From: Thermogemmatispora onikobensis
GTDB lineage: Bacteria; Chloroflexota; Ktedonobacteria; Ktedonobacterales; Ktedonobacteraceae
Direction of reading: 5' to 3'
NCBI RefSeq assembly: GCF_001748285.1
Contig: NZ_BDGT01000008.1
Coordinates: 62,001-126,000, forward strand
Length of the DNA stretch: 64,000 bases
Shown: in pieces, positions 1,466 to 56,461 of the stretch
How the letters are laid out: every line of letters begins with the position of its first letter
Numbering within the stretch: position 1 is the first letter of the stretch
Notes under the pieces: generated by a model
Seen by the model: the letters and a program-made list of their open reading frames with translations, nothing else
What the model was told of the DNA's origin: nothing
Database searches by the model: none
Translations under genes and position numbers: made by a program

Positions 1466-2143
1466 ATGTTGCTTGTCCAATTGTGGCAGTTCATTCTTGA
1501 CCCAGCCAATACCTTTTGGGACCACACGCTCGCTTACCTGCAGGTCTGTGCTGTCTCTGTGGCCCTGGCGACTGTGCTCGGCATTGCCATCGGGGTGGCC
1601 GTGGTGCGCAGCCCTCTGCTGTCGTTCCTGGCTGTCAATCTCAGTGGTCTGATGCGCGCCATTCCCATTATCGCTTTCCTGGCTGCCGCCCTTCCTTACC
1701 TGGGAGTGGGCTTTAAGCCGACAATTGTCGCTTTGACACTGCTGGGGATTCCGCCGATCCTGCTGAATACGTATACCGGCATTCGCAGCATTGAGCCGGC
1801 AATCATCGATGCTGCGCGCGGAATGGGTCTCAATACGCGGCAGATCCTGCTGCGCATCCAGGTGCCGCTGGTGCTACCCATCGTGGCAGCCGGCGTGCGC
1901 ACTTCGGCAGTGCAGATTGTGGCCACCGCCACGCTGGCTGCAATTATCGGCGCTGGCGGCTATGGCGAGTATATTGTGAATGGCCTCTATGAGTTTAAGA
2001 CGGTCCAGATTCTCGCCGGCGCCCTGCCCGTGGCCCTGCTGGCGATGCTGGTTGAGCTGTTGATGGGCTGGCTCCAGCGCGCCCTGACACCCGCCGGCCT
2101 GCGGGTCCAGGAAATGGCTTTAAGCGAGGCCGCGCGGGCGTAA
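1466..2143 (+). CDS. Osmoprotectant ABC transporter permease (OpuCD-like)
   Basis: Second membrane subunit of the importer, 225 residues. A strong ribosome-binding site (GGGAGGAG) precedes the ATG. Hydrophobic segments span most of the protein, and the EAA loop is recognisable at DAARGMGLNTRQILLRIQVPL, homologous to the loop in the preceding permease. The two permeases would form the heterodimeric channel on which the ATPase acts. Gene order here is ATPase, permease, permease, binding protein, whereas Bacillus opuC has the binding protein between the permeases. Confidence 0.87.
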   Translation: MLLVQLWQFILDPANTFWDHTLAYLQVCAVSVALATVLGIAIGVAVVRSPLLSFLAVNLSGLMRAIPIIAFLAAALPYLGVGFKPTIVALTLLGIPPILLNTYTGIRSIEPAIIDAARGMGLNTRQILLRIQVPLVLPIVAAGVRTSAVQIVATATLAAIIGAGGYGEYIVNGLYEFKTVQILAGALPVALLAMLVELLMGWLQRALTPAGLRVQEMALSEAARA

Positions 2144-25035: not shown

Positions 25036-25315
25036 GCTATTCCTGCTTGAGGAGCGGTCGGAGCCCGGCAGCTCTCTAGCTCCGGCGGCTCCCTTCCTCT
25101 TTGCTCTCTCCCCTCCTGCTCCTGGGTAGTGTCAGGCGAAGGGCATTATCCGCACGGTTGATAGATAGATGCTTACCCTCTTCCCCAGGCTGATCGTATT
25201 GGCTCATCTGTCGCCTTTAGCAGCCAGAGAAGGGCGCTGCCGGCCATCAAGCGTGGCTCACCAACAGGATGCATATGGTATGATTCTTTCAGTAGACGAC
25301 TGAGCGCTTCTCATT

Positions 25316-25414
25316 GGACCTGGGGGAGCTCGGGCAACCGGGCTGAGAGGGCCCCTGTCAGCGGGGCCGACCCCTCGAACCTGACCCGGGTAATACCGGC
25401 GGAGGGAAGGGTCC
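25316..25414 (+). promoter_or_regulatory. TPP riboswitch (THI box)
   Basis: The conserved core is read directly: GGGCTGAGAGGG (pyrimidine-sensing helix), then ACCTGACCCGGGTAATACC and GGCGGAGGGAAGG (pyrophosphate-sensing helix). Closing helix P1 is GGACC (25316-25320) with GGTCC (25410-25414). It precedes thiC. No terminator with a T-run lies between it and the gene, so control is more likely at translation, through the GGAGG at 25471. Confidence 0.95.
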
Positions 25415-25482
25415 GTCTGGCCGCCCAACCCGCTGCCGGTTCCCCTTCAGGTCAGTCCCAGACAATGACCGGAGGTGGAACA

Positions 25483-44953: not shown

Positions 44954-46054
44954 CTAGAGAAGCTGCCCCACCGCTGCCACGAATTCCTCGGTGGTCGCCC
45001 TGCCCCCCTGATCAGGAGGCAGCACCTGCCCGCGCCGATAGACCTCAGCAACGGCCTTCCTCAAGCGCCGCGCCTGCTCTCCATAGCCAAGATAGTCCAG
45101 CAACATGGCCCCAGAGAGCAGCATGGCCGTCGGGTTAATCACCCCCTTGCCAGCCAGATCCGGTGCGGAACCGTGCACCGGCTCAAAATAGGCATAGGCG
45201 GGACCATAGCAGCCACTTGGTGCCAGACCAAGCCCTCCAATGCAGCCAGCGGCCATATCGGCCAGAATGTCGCCGTGCTCATTCGAGAGCACAACCACAT
45301 CGAGGCTCTCAGGCACCGCTACCATGCGCCGCGCCAGATCATCAATCAGGAACTCCTGATACTCCAGCTCTCCATAGCGATGCACCGTCTCGCGCACTAT
45401 CTCGCGAAAGCGCCCATCGGTGCGCGGCTGAATCGAATACTTGGCGCCGAGCGTCACCCGTCCCGGATAGCCCTGAGCCTTGCGCTCCAGGGCCAGCTCA
45501 CAGGCAGCCTGCGCCACATAGGCCATTTGCTCATCGGTGCAGATGCGCACCGCATAGGCCCCCTGACGGTCCACCGGCGGCGGCTGCCACCAGCTGCGGC
45601 TGCTCGCCAGGGCCGCCAGTTCGGCCAGGTCTCCTTCGCGCGGTGGATACATCCCCTCCAGATTGTCGCGCACAATGACAAAATCGAAATGCTCCGGCTC
45701 GCGCATCGGACTGCGATAGCCCGGCTGCCAGCACACCGGACGAATGTTGACGCGCGTATCTTTGCCCCAGCGCAGATACCAGAGCACAGGCCGGCTTGGT
45801 CCGCCACTGGCCCCAAAGAGCGTGCACACCGCCCTGTCGATCAGCTCCTGCGTCTCCTGCGGAAAGGCCGCTCCGTAGCGCTCCTCGGCCTCACGCCCAC
45901 TGCTCCCTCTGACAAAGCGCAACTCCGGCACCAGGCGCCGCAAGACCTCCACGGTGGGCCAGACTACTTCGGGCGCGGCGTCATCGCCGGCAACGACGCA
46001 GATCAGCGCCGGCTCGTCCTGAACCAGTTCCCGCCGAAAGATGGCCGCGCTCAT
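44954..46054 (-). CDS. Homoisocitrate dehydrogenase-type enzyme
   Basis: Beta-decarboxylating dehydrogenase (isocitrate/isopropylmalate family), 366 residues; in the alpha-aminoadipate route it would oxidise homoisocitrate to 2-oxoadipate. Seen: GDDAAPEV at the N-terminus, a substrate loop with two arginines (NIRPVCWQPG...VIVRDNLEGMY), LSNEHGDILADMAAG (metal Asp pair) and the NAD-binding FEPVHGSAPDLAGKGVINPTAML. The operon full of LysW-pathway genes decides for homoisocitrate over isocitrate or isopropylmalate. ATGA overlap with the preceding gene. Confidence 0.85.
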   Translation of the reverse strand: MSAAIFRRELVQDEPALICVVAGDDAAPEVVWPTVEVLRRLVPELRFVRGSSGREAEERYGAAFPQETQELIDRAVCTLFGASGGPSRPVLWYLRWGKDTRVNIRPVCWQPGYRSPMREPEHFDFVIVRDNLEGMYPPREGDLAELAALASSRSWWQPPPVDRQGAYAVRICTDEQMAYVAQAACELALERKAQGYPGRVTLGAKYSIQPRTDGRFREIVRETVHRYGELEYQEFLIDDLARRMVAVPESLDVVVLSNEHGDILADMAAGCIGGLGLAPSGCYGPAYAYFEPVHGSAPDLAGKGVINPTAMLLSGAMLLDYLGYGEQARRLRKAVAEVYRRGQVLPPDQGGRATTEEFVAAVGQLL

Positions 46055-46539
46055 CGCAGCGTGCCCTCACGCCGGATGTATTCGATGATGCCCCCAGCCT
46101 CCACAATGCGCGCAATAAAGGGCGGTAGCGGCTGCGCCTGAAAGCGCTGGCCGGTGGTCAGGTTGGTAATCAGACCCTGCTCCAGCTCGACTTCGGCCTC
46201 TTGCCCATCCTCACTATTGAGCACAGCCTCCTCGCAGATCAGGACAGGCAGCCCGATGTTAATGGCATTGCGGTAGAAAATGCGAGCAAAGCTACGGGCA
46301 ATCACCGCCTTGACGCCGCTGGCTTGAATGGCCGCCGGGGCATGCTCGCGCGAGGAGCCACAGCCAAAATTGTGGCCGGCCACAATGATGTCGCCCGGGC
46401 GCACCTGCTGGGCAAACTCCGGCAGAATCTCACAGAGACAGTACTTCGCCAGCTGCGCACGGTCGGTCGTGACATTGTAACGCCCCGGAATGATGACATC
46501 GGTATTGATATTATCACCGAGCTTCCAGATACGTCCCAT
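46051..46539 (-). CDS. lysU: Homoaconitase small subunit
   Basis: 162 residues, the swivel domain of the aconitase family, working with the large subunit to convert homocitrate to homoisocitrate. Signatures: GDNINTDVIIPGRYN and GHNFGCGSSREHAPAAI, with the Ser-Arg of the substrate pocket; the NINTDVIIPGRY start and 160-residue length match LysU/LeuD-type proteins. The ATG at 46539 has AAGGAG 11 nt upstream; a TTG at 46569 lies before that site. Confidence 0.88.
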   Translation of the reverse strand: MGRIWKLGDNINTDVIIPGRYNVTTDRAQLAKYCLCEILPEFAQQVRPGDIIVAGHNFGCGSSREHAPAAIQASGVKAVIARSFARIFYRNAINIGLPVLICEEAVLNSEDGQEAEVELEQGLITNLTTGQRFQAQPLPPFIARIVEAGGIIEYIRREGTLR

Positions 46540-46644
46540 GCTCTTGATCGCTCCTTCTCTCACTCTCAATCTACAGTCGTTGCTCTACTGGACAGAGCAT
46601 CTGCCCTCTCGTCTCCTTTTGCTCACCAGCACCTGCTCACACAC

Positions 46645-47898
46645 TCAAGCAAGGAACTGGCGCGGATCGGTGATATGCCCGGTGATGGCCGTTGCCGCCA
46701 CCGTGGCCGGACTGCCTAGATAGATCTCGGCAGTGGGATCGCCCATGCGCCCGGTGAAATTGCGATTCATCGTCGTCAGGGCACGCTCGCCGGGACCAAG
46801 CACACCGAAGTGTCTACCAATGCAGGGGCCACAGCCCGGCGTCCCGACCGAGGCCCCAGCCTGGATAAAGGTTTCAATGTAGCCCAGGCGCAGCGCCTCC
46901 AGATAGACCTCCCGCGAGGCTGGAATAACGACCATGCGCGTAGTAGGATGAATGGTGCGCCCGCGCAAGATCGAGGCCGCGATCGCCAGATCGTCCAGCC
47001 GGCCATTGGTACAGGTGCCCAGGAAAACCTGATCGATCTGAATGTGCTCGACCTGCTCAACCGGGACCACGTTGTTGACATCCGGCGGGCAGGCCACCAG
47101 CGGTGACAACTCTGAGACATCGACTTCGACCACACGCTCGTAGCGCGGATTCTGCGGCTGCAGCATCGGATAGCTACGATTGACACGCCCACGCAGCCAA
47201 GCCTCGGTGGTGGCATCGGGCGCGACCAGACCGGTCTTGGCTCCCATCTCGATGGCCATGTTGCAGAGCGTGAAGCGCTCGCTGACCGAAAGAGCTTCGA
47301 CAAGCGGGCCGCTATACTCCAGGGCGCGGTAGTTGGCCCCATCCACACCAATACGCCGCACCAGCTCCAGCGTCACATCTTTGACATAGACGCCGGGTTG
47401 CAACTGCCCCGTCAGGCGCACATTGATGGTCTCGGGGACGCGGAACCAACTGCGCCCTGTAGCATAGGCTACGCCAATATCGGTCGACCCCATGCCGGTG
47501 GCGAAGGCTCCGAGGGCGCCATAGGTGCAGGTGTGGCTGTCAGCCCCAACGATAATCTCGCCCGGTGCCACAAAGCCACGCTCCGGCATCACCTGATGAC
47601 AAATGCCCTCTTGCAGGATCTGGATGCCCTGCTCACGGGCAAAGCCGCGGATATCTCGCTGGAGAGTAGCCGCCGCCACGGTGGCCGCCGGGACAATGTG
47701 ATCAAACACGATGTGCGCACGTGCGGGATCAAAGACGTGCCCGCCGCGCTCGCCCGTCAGTTTGCGAAAGGCTTGAATGGCCAGCGGCGAGGTCGTGTCA
47801 TGGCTCATGACGTGATCAACGTCGACGATCACAATCTCGCCAGCGTTCACTGGCCGGCCCAGTTTATAGCTAAAGATCTCTTCGGCTAGCGTTCCCAT
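46645..47898 (-). CDS. lysT: Homoaconitase large subunit
   Basis: 417 residues, the [4Fe-4S] part of the homoaconitase. Cluster ligands are the Cys in FLGTCTNGR and the pair in GCGPCIGRHFGV; other family blocks are VDHVMSHDTTSP, GADSHTCTYGALGAFATGMGSTD and NRNFTGRMGDP. LeuC- and LysT-type enzymes share these; the operon points to homoaconitate. The start lies 13 nt inside the end of the homocitrate synthase gene. A 105-nt gap separates it from the small-subunit gene. Confidence 0.9.
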   Translation of the reverse strand: MGTLAEEIFSYKLGRPVNAGEIVIVDVDHVMSHDTTSPLAIQAFRKLTGERGGHVFDPARAHIVFDHIVPAATVAAATLQRDIRGFAREQGIQILQEGICHQVMPERGFVAPGEIIVGADSHTCTYGALGAFATGMGSTDIGVAYATGRSWFRVPETINVRLTGQLQPGVYVKDVTLELVRRIGVDGANYRALEYSGPLVEALSVSERFTLCNMAIEMGAKTGLVAPDATTEAWLRGRVNRSYPMLQPQNPRYERVVEVDVSELSPLVACPPDVNNVVPVEQVEHIQIDQVFLGTCTNGRLDDLAIAASILRGRTIHPTTRMVVIPASREVYLEALRLGYIETFIQAGASVGTPGCGPCIGRHFGVLGPGERALTTMNRNFTGRMGDPTAEIYLGSPATVAATAITGHITDPRQFLA

Positions 47899-49037
47899 GC
47901 GGTACTCCTTTGCTGCTCATACCAGGATTGAATAAAAGCGTCAACGGCCTCTGACGAGAGCGGCCCCTCCTCAGCTCGCATTTTCAGCGACCAGGTCAGC
48001 TCACGCACTTCCTCATCGTTCAGCTGCAGCCCCAGCTCCGCAGCTCGATGAGCGACAGCATGGCTGCCCGTGAAGCGCGAACCCAGGTCTACCCGGCGCT
48101 CCAGGCCAAAGTCCGCCGGATTCAGGATCTCATAGGCCCGCGGATTGTTGAGAATGGCCCGCGTGTGCACACCCGCGCGATGAGTGAAGGCGTACGGCGC
48201 TGTAATCGGATTATTGAAAGGGATAGGGAGATGAAGACATTGAGCAACATAATCATCGAGAGGCGCTAACTGCCTTAAATCGCGCTGCTGCAGCGTCTCA
48301 GGATAATGCAGGTAGAGCTGCGCCACCAGGCCACTCAGTGAAGCAATGCCATTGCGCTCGCCGATGCCCAGTACAGTCACATCCAGACAATCCGCACCGG
48401 CTTCATAGGCGGCAACGGTATTGGCAATGGCGCAGCCGCTATCGTTGTGCCCATGAAACTCGATCCCAACCTGGGGATAGCGCTCGGCACAGAGGCGAAT
48501 GATGCGCTCGACCTGGCGCGGCGTGGCAATGCCCACCGAATCGGGCAGGCCGATGCGCTCCACCCCAGCCTCCACTACGGCATCAAAGACGGTCAACAGG
48601 TCGACCAGATCACTGCGGAAGGCATCCTCAGCCGAGAAACGCACATAGCGCCCCGCCTCCCGAATGCGCTGGATCAGCGGCACGGCATCGGCGATAATCC
48701 TCTCGATGCGCTTACCATGACTATAAGAGCGCAACTCGGGTGAGGTGCCATAGAAGAGGTTGACGCCGGCCACCGGGGTTGCCAGAGCTGCCTCGACATC
48801 CGCCTCAACACAGCGCACATGGGTCACGATGCGCGCCCGCAGCCCCAGGGCGCAGAGATGCTCGATGGCTTCGCGGATGCGCGGCGCCGAGATCGGCGAG
48901 GGTACCTCAATGAAATCGACGCCGAAGGCATCCAGCATACGAGCAATAGCAATCTGCTGCTCCAGATTGAAGAAAGCGCCGGCGAACTGCTCGCCTTCTC
49001 TGAGCGTCGTATCGAGAATGTGCAGCGCTCGTCTCAT
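47886..49037 (-). CDS. lysS: Homocitrate synthase
   Basis: First enzyme of the alpha-aminoadipate pathway: joins acetyl-CoA and 2-oxoglutarate. 383 residues, DRE-TIM (isopropylmalate synthase) superfamily. The metal and acid-base motif is LDTTLREGEQFAGA, and FHGHNDSGCAIAN holds the metal-binding His pair; AGVHTRAILNNPRAYEIL in the C-terminal part is typical for homocitrate synthases. No regulatory LeuA-dimer domain follows. ATGA overlap with the lysJK gene. Confidence 0.9.
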   Translation of the reverse strand: MRRALHILDTTLREGEQFAGAFFNLEQQIAIARMLDAFGVDFIEVPSPISAPRIREAIEHLCALGLRARIVTHVRCVEADVEAALATPVAGVNLFYGTSPELRSYSHGKRIERIIADAVPLIQRIREAGRYVRFSAEDAFRSDLVDLLTVFDAVVEAGVERIGLPDSVGIATPRQVERIIRLCAERYPQVGIEFHGHNDSGCAIANTVAAYEAGADCLDVTVLGIGERNGIASLSGLVAQLYLHYPETLQQRDLRQLAPLDDYVAQCLHLPIPFNNPITAPYAFTHRAGVHTRAILNNPRAYEILNPADFGLERRVDLGSRFTGSHAVAHRAAELGLQLNDEEVRELTWSLKMRAEEGPLSSEAVDAFIQSWYEQQRSTAWER

Positions 49038-51418
49038 CGCTCCTCGTCCTCCTCTCCGCCTGCCACCTCCTGAGCCAGGCTTGTCAGCACGCGCTCCAGG
49101 ATGGCAATGGCCTCCATATATTCCTCCACAGCAAGGTGTTCCCCGGGTGTATGATCCAGGCGCGCGTCGCCCGGACCATAGGCCACAATCTCAGGTCCCC
49201 AGGCCGGCCCCACGACGTTCATATCCGAAGTGCCGGTCTTGACTTTAAAGGCAGGCTGGATTCCCATTGCCCTCATGGCCTGCACAAAGGCGCGCACCAG
49301 CCTGGTCGTGCGCGGTGCCTGAAAGGCAGCTTCTTCGCCACTGAATTCTAATGCTAGATCTGACTCTTCTGCCCAGTGCTGCAGTTCCTCACGCAGCGCC
49401 TGCGCTGAGCAGGCCAGCGGCAGACGATAGCCAATGCGCAGCGTCGCCCACTCATGGAGACCATCCTGTTCACTCTCGATGCTGCGCAGCACCGGCTGCA
49501 GCGACGCAAAAGGTGAGCTGCCACCATGCAGACGGTTCCACTCCTCTGCATGCTGCCTGACCCGCTCCCAGAAGGCCGCGGCTGCCTCCGCCGCCGTCTG
49601 GCGTGGCCCAGCGCTGTGACCACAGGGACGTACCACTCGCCCGTCAACAAGCAGTCGCCCTTTGTAGCCGAGCGTCACCGCCCGGCTGCCGCTTGGTTCG
49701 CCGATCATGCACGCATAGGGACGATAGCGCTCTACGACGGCACGCGCTCCACGCGAGGTGGCCGCCTCCTCTTCGACAGCCCCAATGACCACAATAGGAC
49801 GCTGCAGATGGCGACGCCCCACCAGGCGCGCTGCCGCCGCCAGGAAAGCCGCCAGCGGCCCCTTGGCATCCACGGCCCCACGTCCGTAAAGTCTGCCCTC
49901 GCGGAAAGCCACCGGGATCGCCCCGGGCACGGTATCCATATGCCCCAGCAGCACCAGCGGCGCTCGTCGGGCGGCTTCCGCGGCCACAGGTACCGTGGCG
50001 ATCAGGTTGCCGACCTCGTCAATGGCAGTTTGTAGTCCGAGGCGTGGCAGATATTCGGCCAGCCAGGTCGCAAGGACACGCTCCTGACCCGAGAGACTGG
50101 GAATGCTGACCATACGATAGAGCAGCTCAATCTCAGCAGCCTGTTCAGCGGCTGCCCCTTCCCCTGCCGAGGCCGTCTGCGCGTGCGCAGGACGAGGCTC
50201 TGCCGTCGCTGCCGGCTGGCCGGCTTGCAATACCTCTGCCAGGCAGTCGAGCGCCTGGTCAAGCTGCTCCTCGCTGATGACTAGCGGCGGCAGCAAGCGG
50301 ATGACGTTGGGACCTGCGGGCAGGGCCAGCACGCCGCGCTCTAGCAGCGCTTCGAGATAGGGTTGCACGCGCGTGCGCAGTTCGACGCCGAGCAGCAGGC
50401 CCAGGCCACGCACCTCGCGAATCAGCGGCGACTGCAGTGCCCTCAGACGCTCCAGAGCATGCTGACCGAGGCGCGCGGCTCTCTCAGCCAGTTCCTCGCG
50501 CTCGATGATGTCCAGCGTCTCCAGGGCCGCAGCACAGACCAACGGATTGCCGCCGAAGGTGCTGCCATGCGTGCCCGGCGTCAGCCGCCCGCTGGCAATT
50601 ACACGCTCACCAAGTGCCACTACTCCCATCGGCAACCCTCCGGCGATTCCTTTAGCCAGACAGAGCAGGTCGGGCTGCAGCCCATAATGCTCGCAGGCCA
50701 GGAAGCGCCCCGTGCGTCCGCAGCCAGTCTGTACCTCGTCGACGATCAGCAAGATTCCACGCTCCTGGCAGAGCCTGGCCAGCTCACGCACGTAGGTCGC
50801 ATCGGCCACATGGACCCCGCCTTCTCCCTGGACCAGCTCAATGAGAACCGCTGCTGTCTGATCGTCGATCGCTCGCTCCAGAGCCGCCAGGTCGTTGTAG
50901 CGCACATGCCTGATCTCTGGTACCAGAGGAGCAAATGGCTCGCGATAGCTGCGTTCCCAGGTGGCCGAGAGCGCGCCGAACGTGCGTCCGTGAAAGCCAC
51001 GCAGAGTGGCAATGATGCCCGGTCGTCCGGTCGCCAGACGAGCAAACTTGATCGCTCCTTCGACCGCTTCAGCCCCACTGTTGCAGAGAAAGAAACGCTG
51101 CAATCCGGACGGCATGAGCTGCGCCAGACGCTCTAGCAGACGCGCCCGCACATCGTTGTAGACACTCTCGGGGCAGGTAATCAGGCGCTGCGCCTGGGCC
51201 GCCAGCGCTGCGGCAATCTCCGCCCGCCCATGTCCGATGTTTGCCACTCCATGCCCGGCGGCGCAGTCAATGTAGCAGCGTCCCCGCGCATCCCAGAGCA
51301 GCGCCCCCTCGCCGCGCACGATCTCCACTGGCCGCTTGTTGTAGACGCCGCTGGTGTGAAGGCGCTCCAGATCCATCAGCGTCTCGAAGGCCGCCGCTGG
51401 TTCGCTGAGTATGCTCAT
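49034..51418 (-). CDS. lysJK: Fusion of LysW-lysine aminotransferase (LysJ) and LysW-lysine hydrolase (LysK)
   Basis: 794 residues, two enzymes in one chain. Residues 1-400: class III PLP aminotransferase of the acetylornithine type (CNSGAEAVEGAIKFAR, IVDEVQTGCGRTG, the PLP lysine in CLAKGIAGGLP), which makes LysW-gamma-lysine from the semialdehyde. A linker of about 30 Ala/Glu-rich residues follows. Residues 432-785: M20/M28-type metallopeptidase (LLGHMDTVPG, GRGAVDAKGPLAAF, GAVEEEAATSRGA, KTGTSDMNV), which frees lysine from LysW. The two steps are consecutive, so channelling of carrier-bound intermediate is plausible. No frame break is seen across the linker. Confidence 0.92.
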   Translation of the reverse strand: MSILSEPAAAFETLMDLERLHTSGVYNKRPVEIVRGEGALLWDARGRCYIDCAAGHGVANIGHGRAEIAAALAAQAQRLITCPESVYNDVRARLLERLAQLMPSGLQRFFLCNSGAEAVEGAIKFARLATGRPGIIATLRGFHGRTFGALSATWERSYREPFAPLVPEIRHVRYNDLAALERAIDDQTAAVLIELVQGEGGVHVADATYVRELARLCQERGILLIVDEVQTGCGRTGRFLACEHYGLQPDLLCLAKGIAGGLPMGVVALGERVIASGRLTPGTHGSTFGGNPLVCAAALETLDIIEREELAERAARLGQHALERLRALQSPLIREVRGLGLLLGVELRTRVQPYLEALLERGVLALPAGPNVIRLLPPLVISEEQLDQALDCLAEVLQAGQPAATAEPRPAHAQTASAGEGAAAEQAAEIELLYRMVSIPSLSGQERVLATWLAEYLPRLGLQTAIDEVGNLIATVPVAAEAARRAPLVLLGHMDTVPGAIPVAFREGRLYGRGAVDAKGPLAAFLAAAARLVGRRHLQRPIVVIGAVEEEAATSRGARAVVERYRPYACMIGEPSGSRAVTLGYKGRLLVDGRVVRPCGHSAGPRQTAAEAAAAFWERVRQHAEEWNRLHGGSSPFASLQPVLRSIESEQDGLHEWATLRIGYRLPLACSAQALREELQHWAEESDLALEFSGEEAAFQAPRTTRLVRAFVQAMRAMGIQPAFKVKTGTSDMNVVGPAWGPEIVAYGPGDARLDHTPGEHLAVEEYMEAIAILERVLTSLAQEVAGGEEDEER

Positions 51419-52284
51419 CGCCGCACCTCCCCCGAGAGCGCCGGCTGCTGATAAACTGGGGACGCCTCAGCCTCACAGGAGCTGGAAGCGGCAATGACTG
51501 TCCCAGCACCCGCCAGAACCGCCGCCAGCGAGCCAGAGCCAATGCAGACGCGGCGCACTCCACCAGCCAGGGCCTCCTGAGCGCCGAGCAACTTCTTACG
51601 CATGCGCCCCTGAGCGTAGGAGAGATAGCGCTCCAGCTCGTGGGCCACGATCGTGGGCACCACACTGCGCGGATCGGCCAGATCGCGCAGCAACCCCGGC
51701 ACGTTAGTGAGAATGGCCAGCGTCTCCGCCCCCAAGGCTGCCGCGACCGCCGCCGCCACCCGGTCCCCGTCAACATTCAAGCGCTCTCCCTCCAGACCCA
51801 GGGCCAGCGGCGCTACTACCGGTGTATAGCCCGCCTCCAGGAGCAGGCGCAGCAACGGGGCATTGACTTGCTCGATCTGCCCACTGTAGTCATCGCGCAC
51901 CACACGCACGCGGCCATCCGGCATCACCGCCCGCAGGGCCGTCTTGCGCCGCGCTCGCAGTAGCTGACCATCAACGCCAGCCAGCCCCACAGCATTGACA
52001 CCGCAGCGCTGCAGGAGCGCCACCAGTTCCGTGTTGATCTGACCAGCTACTGCCATCGCATAAATACGCAAGGTCTCGGCATCGGTATAGCGACTGGTCA
52101 TTCCATTGGGAGCCGTGAGAACCTGCATGGGGTGGCCCAGGCGCTCGCTCAGCTCATTCGTGAGCTGGGAGCCGCCATGTACCACCACTACCCGCTCGCC
52201 CTCCCTCACCAGGCGCGCAATCTCCTCAACAACCGGCGTCGCATCAATCCCGGCCCCACCGCCAATCTTGACAACGAGAGTCAT
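51415..52284 (-). CDS. lysZ: LysW-aminoadipate kinase
   Basis: 289 residues, amino-acid kinase family (acetylglutamate kinase-like). It phosphorylates the distal carboxyl of LysW-bound alpha-aminoadipate. Seen: VVKIGGGAGID at the N-terminus, VVVHGGSQLTNELSERLG, and the ATP-binding TNVPGLLRD followed by GRMRKKLLGAQEALAGGVRRVCIG. GAGGAGG lies 9 nt before the ATG; the stop overlaps the lysJK start (ATGA). The carrier LysW gene in the operon separates it from true ArgB. Confidence 0.9.
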   Translation of the reverse strand: MTLVVKIGGGAGIDATPVVEEIARLVREGERVVVVHGGSQLTNELSERLGHPMQVLTAPNGMTSRYTDAETLRIYAMAVAGQINTELVALLQRCGVNAVGLAGVDGQLLRARRKTALRAVMPDGRVRVVRDDYSGQIEQVNAPLLRLLLEAGYTPVVAPLALGLEGERLNVDGDRVAAAVAAALGAETLAILTNVPGLLRDLADPRSVVPTIVAHELERYLSYAQGRMRKKLLGAQEALAGGVRRVCIGSGSLAAVLAGAGTVIAASSSCEAEASPVYQQPALSGEVRR

Positions 52285-52347: not shown

Positions 52348-53415
52348 TCAGATCGGATGCAGCCCTGGGAAGGTCAGCCCCAGGGTTTCATCCCAGCCAA
52401 AGCGACAGTTGAGCGCCTGCACGGCGTTGCCGGCGGCCCCTTTCACCAGGTTGTCCAGCGCGGCCATGACCACCAGGCGGCGCTGGTCCGTGTCGAGTTC
52501 AAAGCCTATGTCACAGTAGTTGCTGCCAGCCAGAATCTTCGGCTCTGGATAGCGGTAGACACCGCTTCGCTCTTTGACCAGGCGAATAAACGGCTCCTCA
52601 CGATAGGCCTCGCGATAGAGGCGCCAGATCACCTTCTCATCGAGGTCAGTGTTCAAGAAGACCTGGGCAGTGACCAGCACGCCACGCACCAGCTCCACCG
52701 CGGTCGCCGAAAAGGCCAGCGTCTGCCGCCAGGAGCCACCCACGCCAGCCAGAGCGCCTAGCTCCTGGATCAGCTCGGCACTATGGCGGTGACCGGTCGG
52801 CTGGAACGAGCGGACCGCCCCGCTGCGGTCGGGATGATGGCTTCCCGGCCCCGGCGTAGCGCCCGCCGCCGAGGAGCCAACTTTCGCATCGACTACCAGG
52901 GGCAGCCCCTGGTCAACAAGGCCAGCCCGATAGAGCGGAGCCAGACCGAGGATGGCCGCCGTGGCCATGCAGCCCGTTCCGCTGATGAGGGCCGCCTCGC
53001 GTAGTTCCTGCCGATGCAGCTCGGGCAGCCCATAGACAGCCTGGGCCAGCAGCTCCGGCTGCGGATGCTCCTTTCCATACCAGCGCAGATAGAGGTCCGG
53101 CGAGCGCAGGCGAAAATCTGCCGAGAGATCAATGACTACTGGCGCCAGATTGCGGTAACGCTCGATAGCCTGCATCGCCGTTCCATGCGGCATGCAGAGA
53201 AAGATCACGTCACAAGTCGACAGGTCATCATAATGGCAGAGACGAAGGCCGCAGAGTTTGCGCAGATTGGGATGCAGGCTATGCACATACTGGCCAGCGT
53301 GACTGCTGGAAGCCACCTGGGCAATCTCCACCTGGGGATGGAAAAGCAGTAGACGCAGCAGCTCGCCCGCTGTGTAGCCCGAGCCGCCCACGATCGCTAC
53401 GCGCACCTGACTCAT
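52348..53415 (-). CDS. lysY: LysW-aminoadipate 6-phosphate reductase
   Basis: 355 residues from the ATG at 53415. NADPH-dependent reductase of the ArgC family that turns the acyl phosphate into the semialdehyde on LysW. Seen: [22 protein letters not shown] (Rossmann loop), FLCMPHGTA, and the active-site Cys in [13 protein letters not shown]. The fragment [36 protein letters not shown] has the His-rich substrate region of this family. ATGA overlap with lysX. A 63-nt spacer with (CCGAA)n repeats precedes lysZ. Confidence 0.9.
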
Positions 53416-54275
53416 CGCTCCGCTCCTTGCAGCACGCATTGCTCGATGTAGTCCAGCATCGCGCCAGGAATGTCGACCCCGGTGGGAGCGATGCTATTGC
53501 GGAATTCCATTGTGGCATTGATTTCGTTAACCAGCAGACCACGCTCTTCGTCTTCCAGGAGATCAATGGCCAGGATGCCACCGCCAACCGCCTGCGCCGC
53601 ACGGACACAGAGGGCATCAAGCTCGGGAGTAACTGGGCAATTGCTGGCCTGCGCCCCGCGGGCCGTGTTCGTGATCCAGTGCTCGCTTGTGCGATAGATC
53701 GCGCATATTGTGTGCTCTCCTACAACAAAAGCTCGAATATCGCGTTGCGGCTTCTGTATATATTCCTGGATATAGTGCAGGTGATGCTGATAGGAGCCTA
53801 GCGTCTCGCGGTGCTCCAGCACAGCCTCAGCAGCGTCGCGGTCATTGACGCGCGCGAGCAGCCGCCCCCAGGAACCGGTGGTTGGCTTGATGACCGCAGG
53901 ATAGCCCAGGGCCTCAATGCCGCGCAGAGCGCTCTCGGCACTACAGGCCAGGAGCGTACGCGGCGTAGGAATGCCGGCGCGCAGCAAGGCCAGGGTGGTT
54001 TGCAGCTTATCGTTACAAAGAGCTGTTGTTGCTGGACGATTGAAGACGTGCACTCCCCAACTCTCCAGAACCTGAGCCACTGCCAGGCCGTGGGACTGGC
54101 TCACGCTGCGACACAGCACGGCATCGTAGGAGCGCCAGCGCTCATCGGGACGCGCCAGATCGAGAAGCAGCTCGCCATCGTTGAGCAGGTCAAAGGCGAT
54201 GTTGCGCTGGCGCATAGCCTCGATGAGCAGCTTCTCCTCAACGCGGATGCGCGAGGTCAGAATTGCCAGCCTCAT
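53412..54275 (-). CDS. lysX: Alpha-aminoadipate-LysW ligase
   Basis: 287 residues, ATP-grasp ligase of the RimK/LysX group; it attaches alpha-aminoadipate to the C-terminal Glu of LysW, protecting the amino group. Seen: [36 protein letters not shown] (ATP lysine and loop), [23 protein letters not shown] (metal-binding residues; this NEIN.TMEF segment is typical of LysX). Follows lysW by 3 nt. Confidence 0.94.
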
Positions 54276-54278
54276 GCT

Positions 54279-54452
54279 CTATTCACCCCAATCCTCTTCA
54301 ACACGCGGGGCCAGCGCCACCGCTGGCTGCTCCAGGTTGGTTACCTCCAGCTCAGCATTACAATCGGGACAATAGACGATTTCGCCGACAAGTCTATTCT
54401 GCAGATCAATTTCGGCCTCACACTCTGGACAGAGGGCCACCAGTTTGCTCAT
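54279..54452 (-). CDS. lysW: LysW amino-group carrier protein
   Basis: 57 residues, with AGGAGG 6 nt before the ATG. A zinc ribbon is formed by C8, C11, C28 and C31 (CPEC and CPDC), followed by an acidic segment and the invariant C-terminal EDWGE, whose last Glu carries the substrate on its gamma-carboxyl. This small acidic carrier protects the amino group of alpha-aminoadipate and presents it to LysX, LysZ, LysY, LysJ and LysK, all encoded downstream. First gene of the operon, right after the second T-box terminator. Confidence 0.96.
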   Translation of the reverse strand: MSKLVALCPECEAEIDLQNRLVGEIVYCPDCNAELEVTNLEQPAVALAPRVEEDWGE

Positions 54453-54511: not shown

Positions 54512-54835
54512 AAACAAAAACGCTCTTCGCCCCTTCTCGCGAAGGACGAAGAGCGTCAGTAATCGCAATCGACAGCTCTCGCGGTACCACCTTCATTCGC
54601 CGGCACTCCTGCGCACCGGCCTCAGCGAGCACGCCAGCGTGCTCTTGCCCGTTAACGGGGGCCTCCGGCAGAGGTCTACTCTCGCCCGCCTCAGCGGACG
54701 GGACGATTTCTTCTCGCGGCTCCAGGGTCTTTCTCACGGCTCACGATAGACGAGCTTTCCACCAACCGCTCGCTCTCTGGCTATCGGAGGAACCGCTACC
54801 TGTCCCCTTCAGCGCCTTCTCTGACTGTGACCGTA
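54512..54835 (-). promoter_or_regulatory. T-box riboswitch 2 (proximal), lysine operon leader
   Basis: Leftward T-box leader immediately before lysW. Stem I top: AGAGAGCGAGCGGTTGGTGG with the AG bulge and GGTTGGTG loop. Probable specifier AAG (Lys) at 54731-54729 in GTGAGAAAGAC, followed by a purine. The T-box AAGGTGGTACCGCG (54593-54580) contains the tRNA-acceptor-binding bulge. A strong terminator follows: ACGCTCTTCG paired with CGAAGAGCGT and TTTTTGTTT (54556-54512). Uncharged tRNA-Lys should stabilise the antiterminator and let transcription reach lysW. Confidence 0.9.
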
Positions 54836-55040
54836 TCTGTTTGTTTGCTTGCTTGCTTGTTTACCTATCAGGCTCTCTTTAGAGAACCAGTAACCGGCGC
54901 GTGTGGCCCGGTCCCCGCTGGCCGGCTCTCACCAGGCTCTCACTCTGAGTCGCCTGCTTCTTTTCTGCTACTGCTGCTGTCCGTTTTCTCCGCGGGTCTG
55001 TGGTAAGCGGATGGCGTCATAGGTCATGGACTGCAGCAAC

Positions 55041-55410
55041 AAAAAAACTCTTCATCCTCGAAAGGACGAAGAGCGCAACAGAGATGGCGGCTCTCGCGGT
55101 ACCACCTTCATTCGCCGCTACCTCACGGCAGCGACCTCGGCGAGTGCAATCCCCTGATCTTCTTTCTTTCTTTCAATCCCTGGTTTCAATCCCTGGGTGA
55201 GCTTCTCCAGGAGCGAGACTGCACTCCTGCCCGTTAACGGGGGCCTCCGGCAGAGGTCTACTCTCGCCCGCCTCAGCGGACGGGACGATTTCTTCTCGCG
55301 GCTTCGGGACCTTCTTCACGACCTGCCAGCATACGAACTTTGCACCAACCGTTCGCTCTCTGAATGCGGCCTGGCCGCTACTCATCCCGCAACGCCTTTC
55401 GCTCTTAGAA
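55041..55410 (-). promoter_or_regulatory. T-box riboswitch 1 (distal), lysine operon leader
   Basis: A second complete T-box upstream of the first. Shared features: AGAGAGCGAACGGTTGGTGC at the top of stem I, the nearly identical stem I base/stem II region (GCCGCGAGAAGAAATCG and on), T-box AAGGTGGTACCGCG (55108-55095) and a terminator CTCTTCGTCCT/AGGATGAAGAG with T7 (55073-55041). Probable specifier AAG at 55313-55311 in GTGAAGAAGG, aligned with that of T-box 2. Between stem I and antiterminator it carries a 13-bp tandem repeat that T-box 2 lacks. Confidence 0.9.
55171..55196. repeat. 13-bp direct repeat inside T-box 1
   Basis: TTTCAATCCCTGG occurs twice with no gap (55171-55183 and 55184-55196), next to a (TTTC)n tract. 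It lies in the linker of T-box 1. Confidence 0.85.
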
Positions 55411-55429
55411 TGGGTTGCTTTTTTGGGAT

Positions 55430-55457
55430 TTATACCATTTTTTGCCGCTGCTGTCAA
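55430..55457 (-). promoter_or_regulatory. Promoter of the lysine operon
   Basis: Leftward TTGACA (55452-55457), 16-bp spacer, TATAAA (55430-55435): near-consensus sigma-A. Predicted start near 55423, just before T-box 1. I see no second promoter between the two T-boxes, so transcripts should pass both. Confidence 0.78.
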
Positions 55458-55669
55458 GTCCCGGGGAAGACATTGGCCTGGAGCCACAGTTTTGGTTTTG
55501 GTCCCTGGCGCCCAGCCGGGTTGTTGCAACAGGAGATGCCACCTGGCACGTCCTATGTAATGAAGAGAGAGACAGAGGTGTGGGTGCTCACCAGTTCCTT
55601 CCTCTGCTGAGGGGAAGGACCAGGCACCCGGCTCCGTTGCCAATGAAAGAAGGAGGGCCAGGCCACTAC

Positions 55670-56461
55670 ATGAGCACTATGCTCCCCTGGTACTACTGGC
55701 CATGTGCGCCAGCTCAGCTGAGTCTCGCCCAGGGCGAGGTCCATATCTGGTGCGCCTCGCTGGCTCTGCCCACCGCCAGGATGGCAGAGCTGGCCACAGT
55801 TCTGACGCCTGCAGAACAGGAACACGCCGCTCGCTTTCGCTCGGCGCAGGCCCGCCAGCAGTTTATGGTAGCGCGGGCGATCCTGCGCCTCATCCTGAGC
55901 CGCTATCTTGGGTTGCTTCCACAGCAGTTGCGCCTGCGTACCAATCCCTGGGGAAAGCCAGAGCTAGATCCTGAGCCAGCTCGCCTTCAGCCGAGGCTGA
56001 CATTCAATCTGTCGCACTCCGAAGCGCTCGCTCTCTATGCTGTGACAGGCGGACGGGCGATCGGCATCGACCTGGAGTATTTGCGCCCTCTGCCAGAGGC
56101 CGAGCTGGAGCAGCTCGCCGCCCGCTACTTTGCGCCCGCGGAATATCGGACGCTCCTCAGTCTGGCAGACGAGGAGAAGCTGCCAGCCTTTTTCCGCTGC
56201 TGGACCAGCAAAGAGGCCTATGTCAAGGCGCGCGGTCAGGGCCTTGCGCTGCCTTTGGATGCTTTTGAGGTGTCGCTGACTCCCGCATCTCCCGCCAGGC
56301 TGCTGGCCAGCACCGAAGAGCCAGATGCTCCTCAGCGCTGGTCGCTGCTGGCCATCGAGCCAGCACCGGCCTATACCGCTGCCCTGGCCGTCGAGGGCCA
56401 TATCGAGCATGTAGCGTATTTCCGCTGGAACGATCAGGAGCCTTCTCTTTTCGCCACTTGA
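55670..56461 (+). CDS. 4'-phosphopantetheinyl transferase (Sfp type)
   Basis: Transfers phosphopantetheine from CoA to a serine of acyl or peptidyl carrier proteins. 263 residues, the two-lobed Sfp length. Motifs: TNPWGKPEL and FNLSHSEALALYA (first), IGIDLEYLRP (132-140, Mg-binding Asp) and FRCWTSKEAYVKARGQGL (175-192, Mg-binding Glu and Lys). The frame is open upstream to 55415, across the leader of the divergent lysine operon; the ATG at 55670 with AAGGAGGG 14 nt upstream is chosen. No polyketide or peptide synthase is in the window, so the target carrier is elsewhere. Confidence 0.9.
   Translation: MSTMLPWYYWPCAPAQLSLAQGEVHIWCASLALPTARMAELATVLTPAEQEHAARFRSAQARQQFMVARAILRLILSRYLGLLPQQLRLRTNPWGKPELDPEPARLQPRLTFNLSHSEALALYAVTGGRAIGIDLEYLRPLPEAELEQLAARYFAPAEYRTLLSLADEEKLPAFFRCWTSKEAYVKARGQGLALPLDAFEVSLTPASPARLLASTEEPDAPQRWSLLAIEPAPAYTAALAVEGHIEHVAYFRWNDQEPSLFAT

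Follow-up and report, generated by a model that had tools for sequence, protein, structure and literature searches.

Two T-box leaders with lysine specifiers in series upstream of the LysW lysine operon in Thermogemmatispora and its family

In Bacillota, T-boxes often occur in tandem, mostly upstream of trp and ilv-leu genes (PMC12452182), and a review from 2020 described the mode of action of such tandems as unknown (PMC7583486). T-boxes specific for lysine are known and count among the rarest (PMC7778990), and in Chloroflexi the element has been described for ileS and trp genes (PMC2494555). In a literature coverage that was incomplete, with some of the main T-box surveys outside it, we found no paper on a T-box, single or tandem, controlling a LysW operon; the judgment of an earlier note on this DNA, that such control is rarely described, agrees with the papers covered. 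Within the same incomplete coverage, no paper linked T-boxes to Ktedonobacter. The LysW of PMC5584792 was rejected as the pathway protein, being a transporter of the same name. TBDB and similar databases may list the leaders described here without comment.

We analyzed a stretch of 64,000 nucleotides from Thermogemmatispora onikobensis (the window). On its minus strand, a pair of leaders lies between a promoter and the lysW start codon at 54452, with the following features.

55429-55457, minus strand: promoter with TTGACA (55457-55452), a 17-nt spacer and TATAAA (55434-55429), matching at 11 of 12 positions and the only strong one
55059-55401, minus strand: leader 1, full-length T-box (RF00230)
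55311-55313, minus strand: leader 1 specifier AAG (Lys), next base G, in a loop between covarying helices
55228-55302, minus strand: leader 1 stem II and IIA/B region, 75 nt, identical to the leader 2 block
55095-55106, minus strand: leader 1 T-box core GGTGGTACCGCG, UGGU bulge at 55104-55101, fitting discriminator A
55041-55074, minus strand: leader 1 intrinsic terminator and T-run (hairpin with T-run 55074-55047; -17.7 kcal/mol, z -5.2)
54539-54821, minus strand: leader 2, full-length T-box (RF00230)
54729-54731, minus strand: leader 2 specifier AAG (Lys), next base A, in a loop between covarying helices
54646-54720, minus strand: leader 2 stem II and IIA/B region, 75 nt, identical to the leader 1 block
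54580-54591, minus strand: leader 2 T-box core GGTGGTACCGCG, UGGU bulge at 54589-54586, fitting discriminator A
54516-54557, minus strand: leader 2 intrinsic terminator and T-run (hairpin with T-run 54557-54519; -26.9 kcal/mol, z -5.6)

A covariance-model search with RF00230 matched both leaders over model positions 1-219, leader 1 at 55401-55059 (69.4 bits) and leader 2 at 54821-54539 (82.4 bits); of these two whole-model matches, the better had an E value of 6.6e-18 and the other of 1.5e-14. When the whole genome was searched, the matches fell at the same places (E 1.2e-14 for leader 1 and 5.4e-18 for leader 2) and ranked fifth and fourth, respectively, among 16 genomic T-box matches. Both scores are lower than the Rfam gathering cut-off of 93 bits, and a default Rfam scan of the window at that cut-off returned no T-box, the E-value mode being needed. 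The shortfall is explained by the GC-rich sequence and the large insertions, of which leader 1 carries the longer one ahead of its antiterminator; several leaders at the loci of relatives score near or above the cut-off. Both leaders are thus confirmed as T-boxes. The earlier note had read two complete T-boxes in series, each with its own terminator, and the covariance-model scan that it had proposed bore out the first part over the full model, while the hairpins and T-runs listed above supported the second.

The genes behind the leaders were identified by profile matches.

54279-54452, minus strand: lysW, carrier protein of 57 aa (TIGR01206, 59.3 bits, over cut-off; PF21344)
53412-54275, minus strand: lysX (TIGR02144, 347 bits, over cut-off)
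52348-53418, minus strand: lysY, ArgC-like reductase (TIGR01850, 383.8 bits)
51415-52284, minus strand: lysZ, [LysW]-aminoadipate kinase (NF010659, 329.2 bits, over cut-off)
49034-51418, minus strand: lysJ-lysK fusion of 794 aa, aminotransferase and [LysW]-lysine hydrolase (NF003367, over cut-off)
47886-49037, minus strand: homocitrate synthase (TIGR02146, 393.6 bits, under the cut-off of 413.55; assigned with operon context)
46645-47898, minus strand: homoaconitase large subunit (TIGR01343, 557 bits; TIGR02086, 563 bits)
46051-46569, minus strand: homoaconitase small subunit (TIGR02087, 208.5 bits)
44954-46054, minus strand: homoisocitrate dehydrogenase (TIGR02088, 227 bits, under the cut-off of 409.8; assigned with operon context)

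The genes mostly overlap or adjoin, and the fusion protein combines a class-III aminotransferase (residues 30-397) with an M20 peptidase (490-779). With all pathway genes identified, the operon is a complete alpha-aminoadipate/LysW route; the earlier note had named it the LysW lysine operon. On the other strand, a divergent gene at about 55661-56461 (plus) resembles an Sfp-type phosphopantetheinyl transferase in a translation judged by eye.

In the alignment of the leaders, the antiterminator is formed by columns 11-29 with 54-66 and the terminator by columns 54-65 with 79-90; the two structures are mutually exclusive because the strand of columns 54-65 is common to both. Paired cells made up 95.0% for the antiterminator and 97.4% for the terminator, compared with 36.7-60.1% when the pairing was slid. 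Changes on both sides were seen in five pairs of the antiterminator and seven of the terminator, and the cells changed on both sides numbered 10 and 15, where shuffling gave means of 2.1 and 1.7. A T-run was present 3' of the hairpin in 33 of the 34 leaders inspected. The sole exception was a leader 2 (L032 1113-1226, plus strand), which had no recognisable T-run after the hairpin.

The arrangement suggests that one transcript, starting near 55422, would run through two tRNA-Lys-responsive T-box attenuators before reaching lysW. In each of them, stems I and II would hold tRNA-Lys(CUU) via its anticodon at the AAG specifier; the 3' end ACCA of an uncharged tRNA would pair with the UGGU bulge, the antiterminator would form and RNA polymerase would pass, while with a charged tRNA the terminator would form instead. 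Passage of both leaders would make expression of the LysW pathway approximately the product of two read-through probabilities, with less leak under ample lysine and a steeper increase as lysine becomes scarce. For independent saturable switches in series, the log-log slope is doubled at low signal and the leak is squared. The AND-like, steeper response proposed earlier would fit two serial Lys T-boxes, the operon probably being on only when both copies sense a lysine shortage, and the multiplicative model may fail if the leaders interact. We infer tRNA binding, termination in the cell and the multiplicative logic from sequence, and consider the explanation as a whole, two serial tRNA-Lys T-box attenuators behind one promoter with multiplicative read-through into the LysW operon, highly probable.

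The doubling is not required for function, as this operon in other Chloroflexota has a single T-box near lysX or lacks one there. It is possible, at somewhat less than even chances, that both leaders work and that the gain lies not in slope but in a tighter shut-off through the squared leak, in safety against failure or in a different tuning. The second terminator far exceeds the first in strength (-26.9 vs. -17.7 kcal/mol), and stem I and the terminators have diverged by position yet stayed intact, both in line with such a gain; if the leaders are independent, however, low leak and higher slope come jointly and are hard to separate. Multiplicative read-through of two lysine-responsive leaders is our preferred reading.

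This reading depends on the specifiers. Stem I was compared over 30 sequences, drawn from the family and from one sister; compensatory changes occur in 12 of its 14 consensus pairs. Columns 111-119 of the stem I alignment, the 3' side of the specifier loop, are flanked by two covarying helices and read GAAGAAGGT at 55317-55309 in leader 1 and GAGAAAGAC at 54735-54727 in leader 2. Specifier columns 115-117 contained AAG in 23 and AAA in 5 of the 28 rows with letters, and the next base was always a purine. One-base shifts of the frame give mixtures of Lys/Glu/stop or Arg/Lys across the family leaders; only the AAG/AAA frame specifies a single amino acid, and the comparison thus fixes the frame and, with it, lysine. 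The discriminator base is A in both tRNA-Lys(UUU) and tRNA-Lys(CUU), which therefore fit the UGGU bulge of both leaders. According to TBDB, two-codon amino acids have one specifier in >85% of cases and a 3'-A is favoured (PMC7778990), making AAG the less usual specifier here.

The two leaders could also be imagined to differ in the isoacceptor that they read (CUU or UUU) or even in the amino acid, given that AAA occurs in one leader or in both in a few genomes of the family and that the adjacent frames are Arg or Glu codons in some leaders. In the conserved frame, though, the specifier is AAG in both leaders of the window, and only this frame yields one amino acid across the family, which makes such a division of labor very improbable. 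The AAG (Lys) specifier that the earlier note had aligned to both leaders was recovered in the folded loops, and a specifier other than Lys in the folded stem I, which it had named as contrary evidence, was found in neither. Its second piece of contrary evidence, a separate promoter between the leaders, was likewise absent: the single upstream promoter that it had proposed stands with 11 matching positions, and nothing comparable was found behind it.

Each of the 22 family genomes carried TTGACA or TTGACT, 17 or 18 bases and a TATA-type -10 box ahead of leader 1, matching at 9-11 of 12 positions; in the window, the -35 box begins with base 55457. The region between the leaders held at best a site matching at 7 of 12 positions in the window and at 6-9 of 12 in the 22 family genomes, always weaker than the upstream site and not conserved. 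In Thermogemmatispora, the gap of 87-240 nt between the two RF00230 matches offers room enough for a promoter that would make the proximal leader an independent unit, but most other genera of the family have gaps of 60-94 nt without a site comparable to the upstream promoter, and we give this arrangement even less credence than a split in specificity.

The pair is conserved well beyond the window. Two T-boxes were found upstream of lysX/lysW in all 22 family genomes with enough upstream sequence, representing nine genera; four further loci (L024, L030, L033 and L037) were cut by contig ends and fall outside this count. The LysX encoded in the window shares 99% identity with its T. aurantia counterpart. 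A single T-box is present at the locus in two further families of the order (L043 and L044). In the rest of Chloroflexota, 51 further lysX upstream regions were examined, mostly 1.5 kb or more with a few cut short, so that a more distant operon promoter would escape; one co-oriented T-box was found in five of them (L052, L059, L061, L067 and L096) and none in the others. By inspection, four of these five single T-boxes have AAG in the aligned specifier, L067 being less certain. The doubling thus characterizes the family, and control of lysW by T-boxes extends further, in a patchy distribution. Regulation by the gene-proximal leader alone, the distal one being a decaying duplicate, is close to refuted and as improbable as a second promoter: decay is frequent in duplicated regulatory elements, and leader 1 has the lower score in the window and the longer insertion before the antiterminator, but both leaders are complete in every one of the 22 genomes, with specifier, core, antiterminator and terminator intact at both positions. 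The pair occurs in nine genera, and sister families carry one copy ahead of the same operon, which makes the effect of doubling directly comparable.

Within the present genome, only lysW is preceded by a T-box pair. Two other candidates for tandem arrangement (C1:96373/96848 and C1:115327/114957) were rejected, their second matches covering only model positions 183-216; most plausibly, each is one T-box containing a long insertion. Judging from translations by eye, other T-boxes of the genome (L001, L002, L006-L013 and L016) precede likely leuS, serS, trpS, proS, glyS, AlaX-like, valS, argC, argG, pheS and thrS genes. At L003, a SAM riboswitch (1273-1382) is followed by a T-box (1501-1833, plus strand) upstream of a gene that by eye is a likely homoserine acetyltransferase.

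We compared the two copies within and between Thermogemmatispora species. Identity between leaders 1 and 2 is only 54-59% over stem I and 61-65% over the antiterminator/terminator, compared with 86-95% and 86-93% between sister species at the same position. In stem II and the IIA/B region the relation is reversed, with 96-100% identity between copies within a species and 80-88% between species, and plain constraint was rejected as the cause of the identical 75-nt block on these figures. The block is absent from all other T-boxes of the genome and hence not a general feature of them. Similar homogenisation, including the terminator, was seen at L023, L039 and L040. The simplest account would be repeated gene conversion, confined in Thermogemmatispora to stem II and leaving stem I and the terminators free to specialise; such segment-wise conversion would show which part of the copies is kept alike and which may differ.

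The tRNA matching the AAG specifier, tRNA-Lys(CUU), is itself unusual. Its gene is split in all six Thermogemmatispora genomes and whole in the other genera checked. Four of the introns were recovered in full: they are 646-667 bases long, start with GUGCG directly 3' of ...CUCUUAA and contain a group II domain V above the Rfam cut-off (RF00029, 50-59 bits). In the present genome, the intron is 649 nt long (L227, G000:C46:22900-23760, minus strand; L227 741-93) and lies directly after the anticodon loop, CUCUUAA|UCGC. No long ORF was found in the one intron checked. A related intron of 575-615 nt with the same site and the same domain V interrupts tRNA-Trp(CCA) at CUCCAAA| (L323, G000:C7:55500-56800, minus strand; L325 and L328), which explains why neither ARAGORN nor RF00005 returned a tRNA-Trp. 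A third related, ORF-less group II intron occupies the same site of tRNA-Ile(CAU), at CUCAUAA| (L324, G000:C52:20300-21800; L326 and L327); it is 670-754 nt long in L326 and L324, its domain V has compensatory changes, and in L327 the 5' exon and domain V were found.

The group II reverse transcriptase/maturase profile TIGR04416 had no match in four genomes of the genus (G000, G038, G039 and G042) and 4-11 matches in other family genera; splicing may be autonomous or proceed via another factor. Plastid tRNA genes carry group II introns, trnK among them. Introns of bacterial tRNA genes are group I according to one review (PMC4810243), and an incomplete literature coverage yielded no account of group II introns in these genes. 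A group II intron in the tRNA-Lys(CUU) of Thermogemmatispora is well supported, and group II introns in tRNA genes are perhaps more striking than the T-box pair itself. Dependence of the operon on the spliced tRNA, with the paired T-boxes reporting on spliced, uncharged tRNA-Lys, is unlikely, and a regulatory coupling of T-boxes and intron splicing is a guess; if true, it would tie lysine supply to splicing and thereby to temperature, magnesium or a host factor.

Compared with known systems, the leaders share with the transcription-attenuating T-boxes of RF00230 the AG bulge and the terminal loop motif of stem I, the specifier loop, a stem II with AGTA, an F-box-like CCG...CCGUUA, the UGGN-bulge antiterminator and the terminator; they differ from typical members in being GC-rich, in their large insertions and in their host, a member of Ktedonobacteria and not of Bacillota. 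The lysine (L-box) riboswitch likewise controls lysine genes through a leader RNA but senses lysine itself, and an Rfam scan of the window found no match to it. The same window contains a TPP riboswitch at 25312-25425 (plus strand, 68.4 bits). The Lys-specific T-boxes of Bacillota, such as that of the Lys permease BH0807 (PMC2494555), have the Lys specifier in common with the present leaders but have not been reported as pairs on a biosynthetic operon, whereas those described here are paired and mostly AAG. The tandem T-boxes of Bacillota, found on trp, ilv-leu and thrS operons (PMC12452182), likewise place two complete T-boxes before one operon. The present pair differs from them in amino acid and phylum and in a homogenised stem II beside diverged stem I and terminators, and it extends T-box control to the LysW route of lysine biosynthesis.
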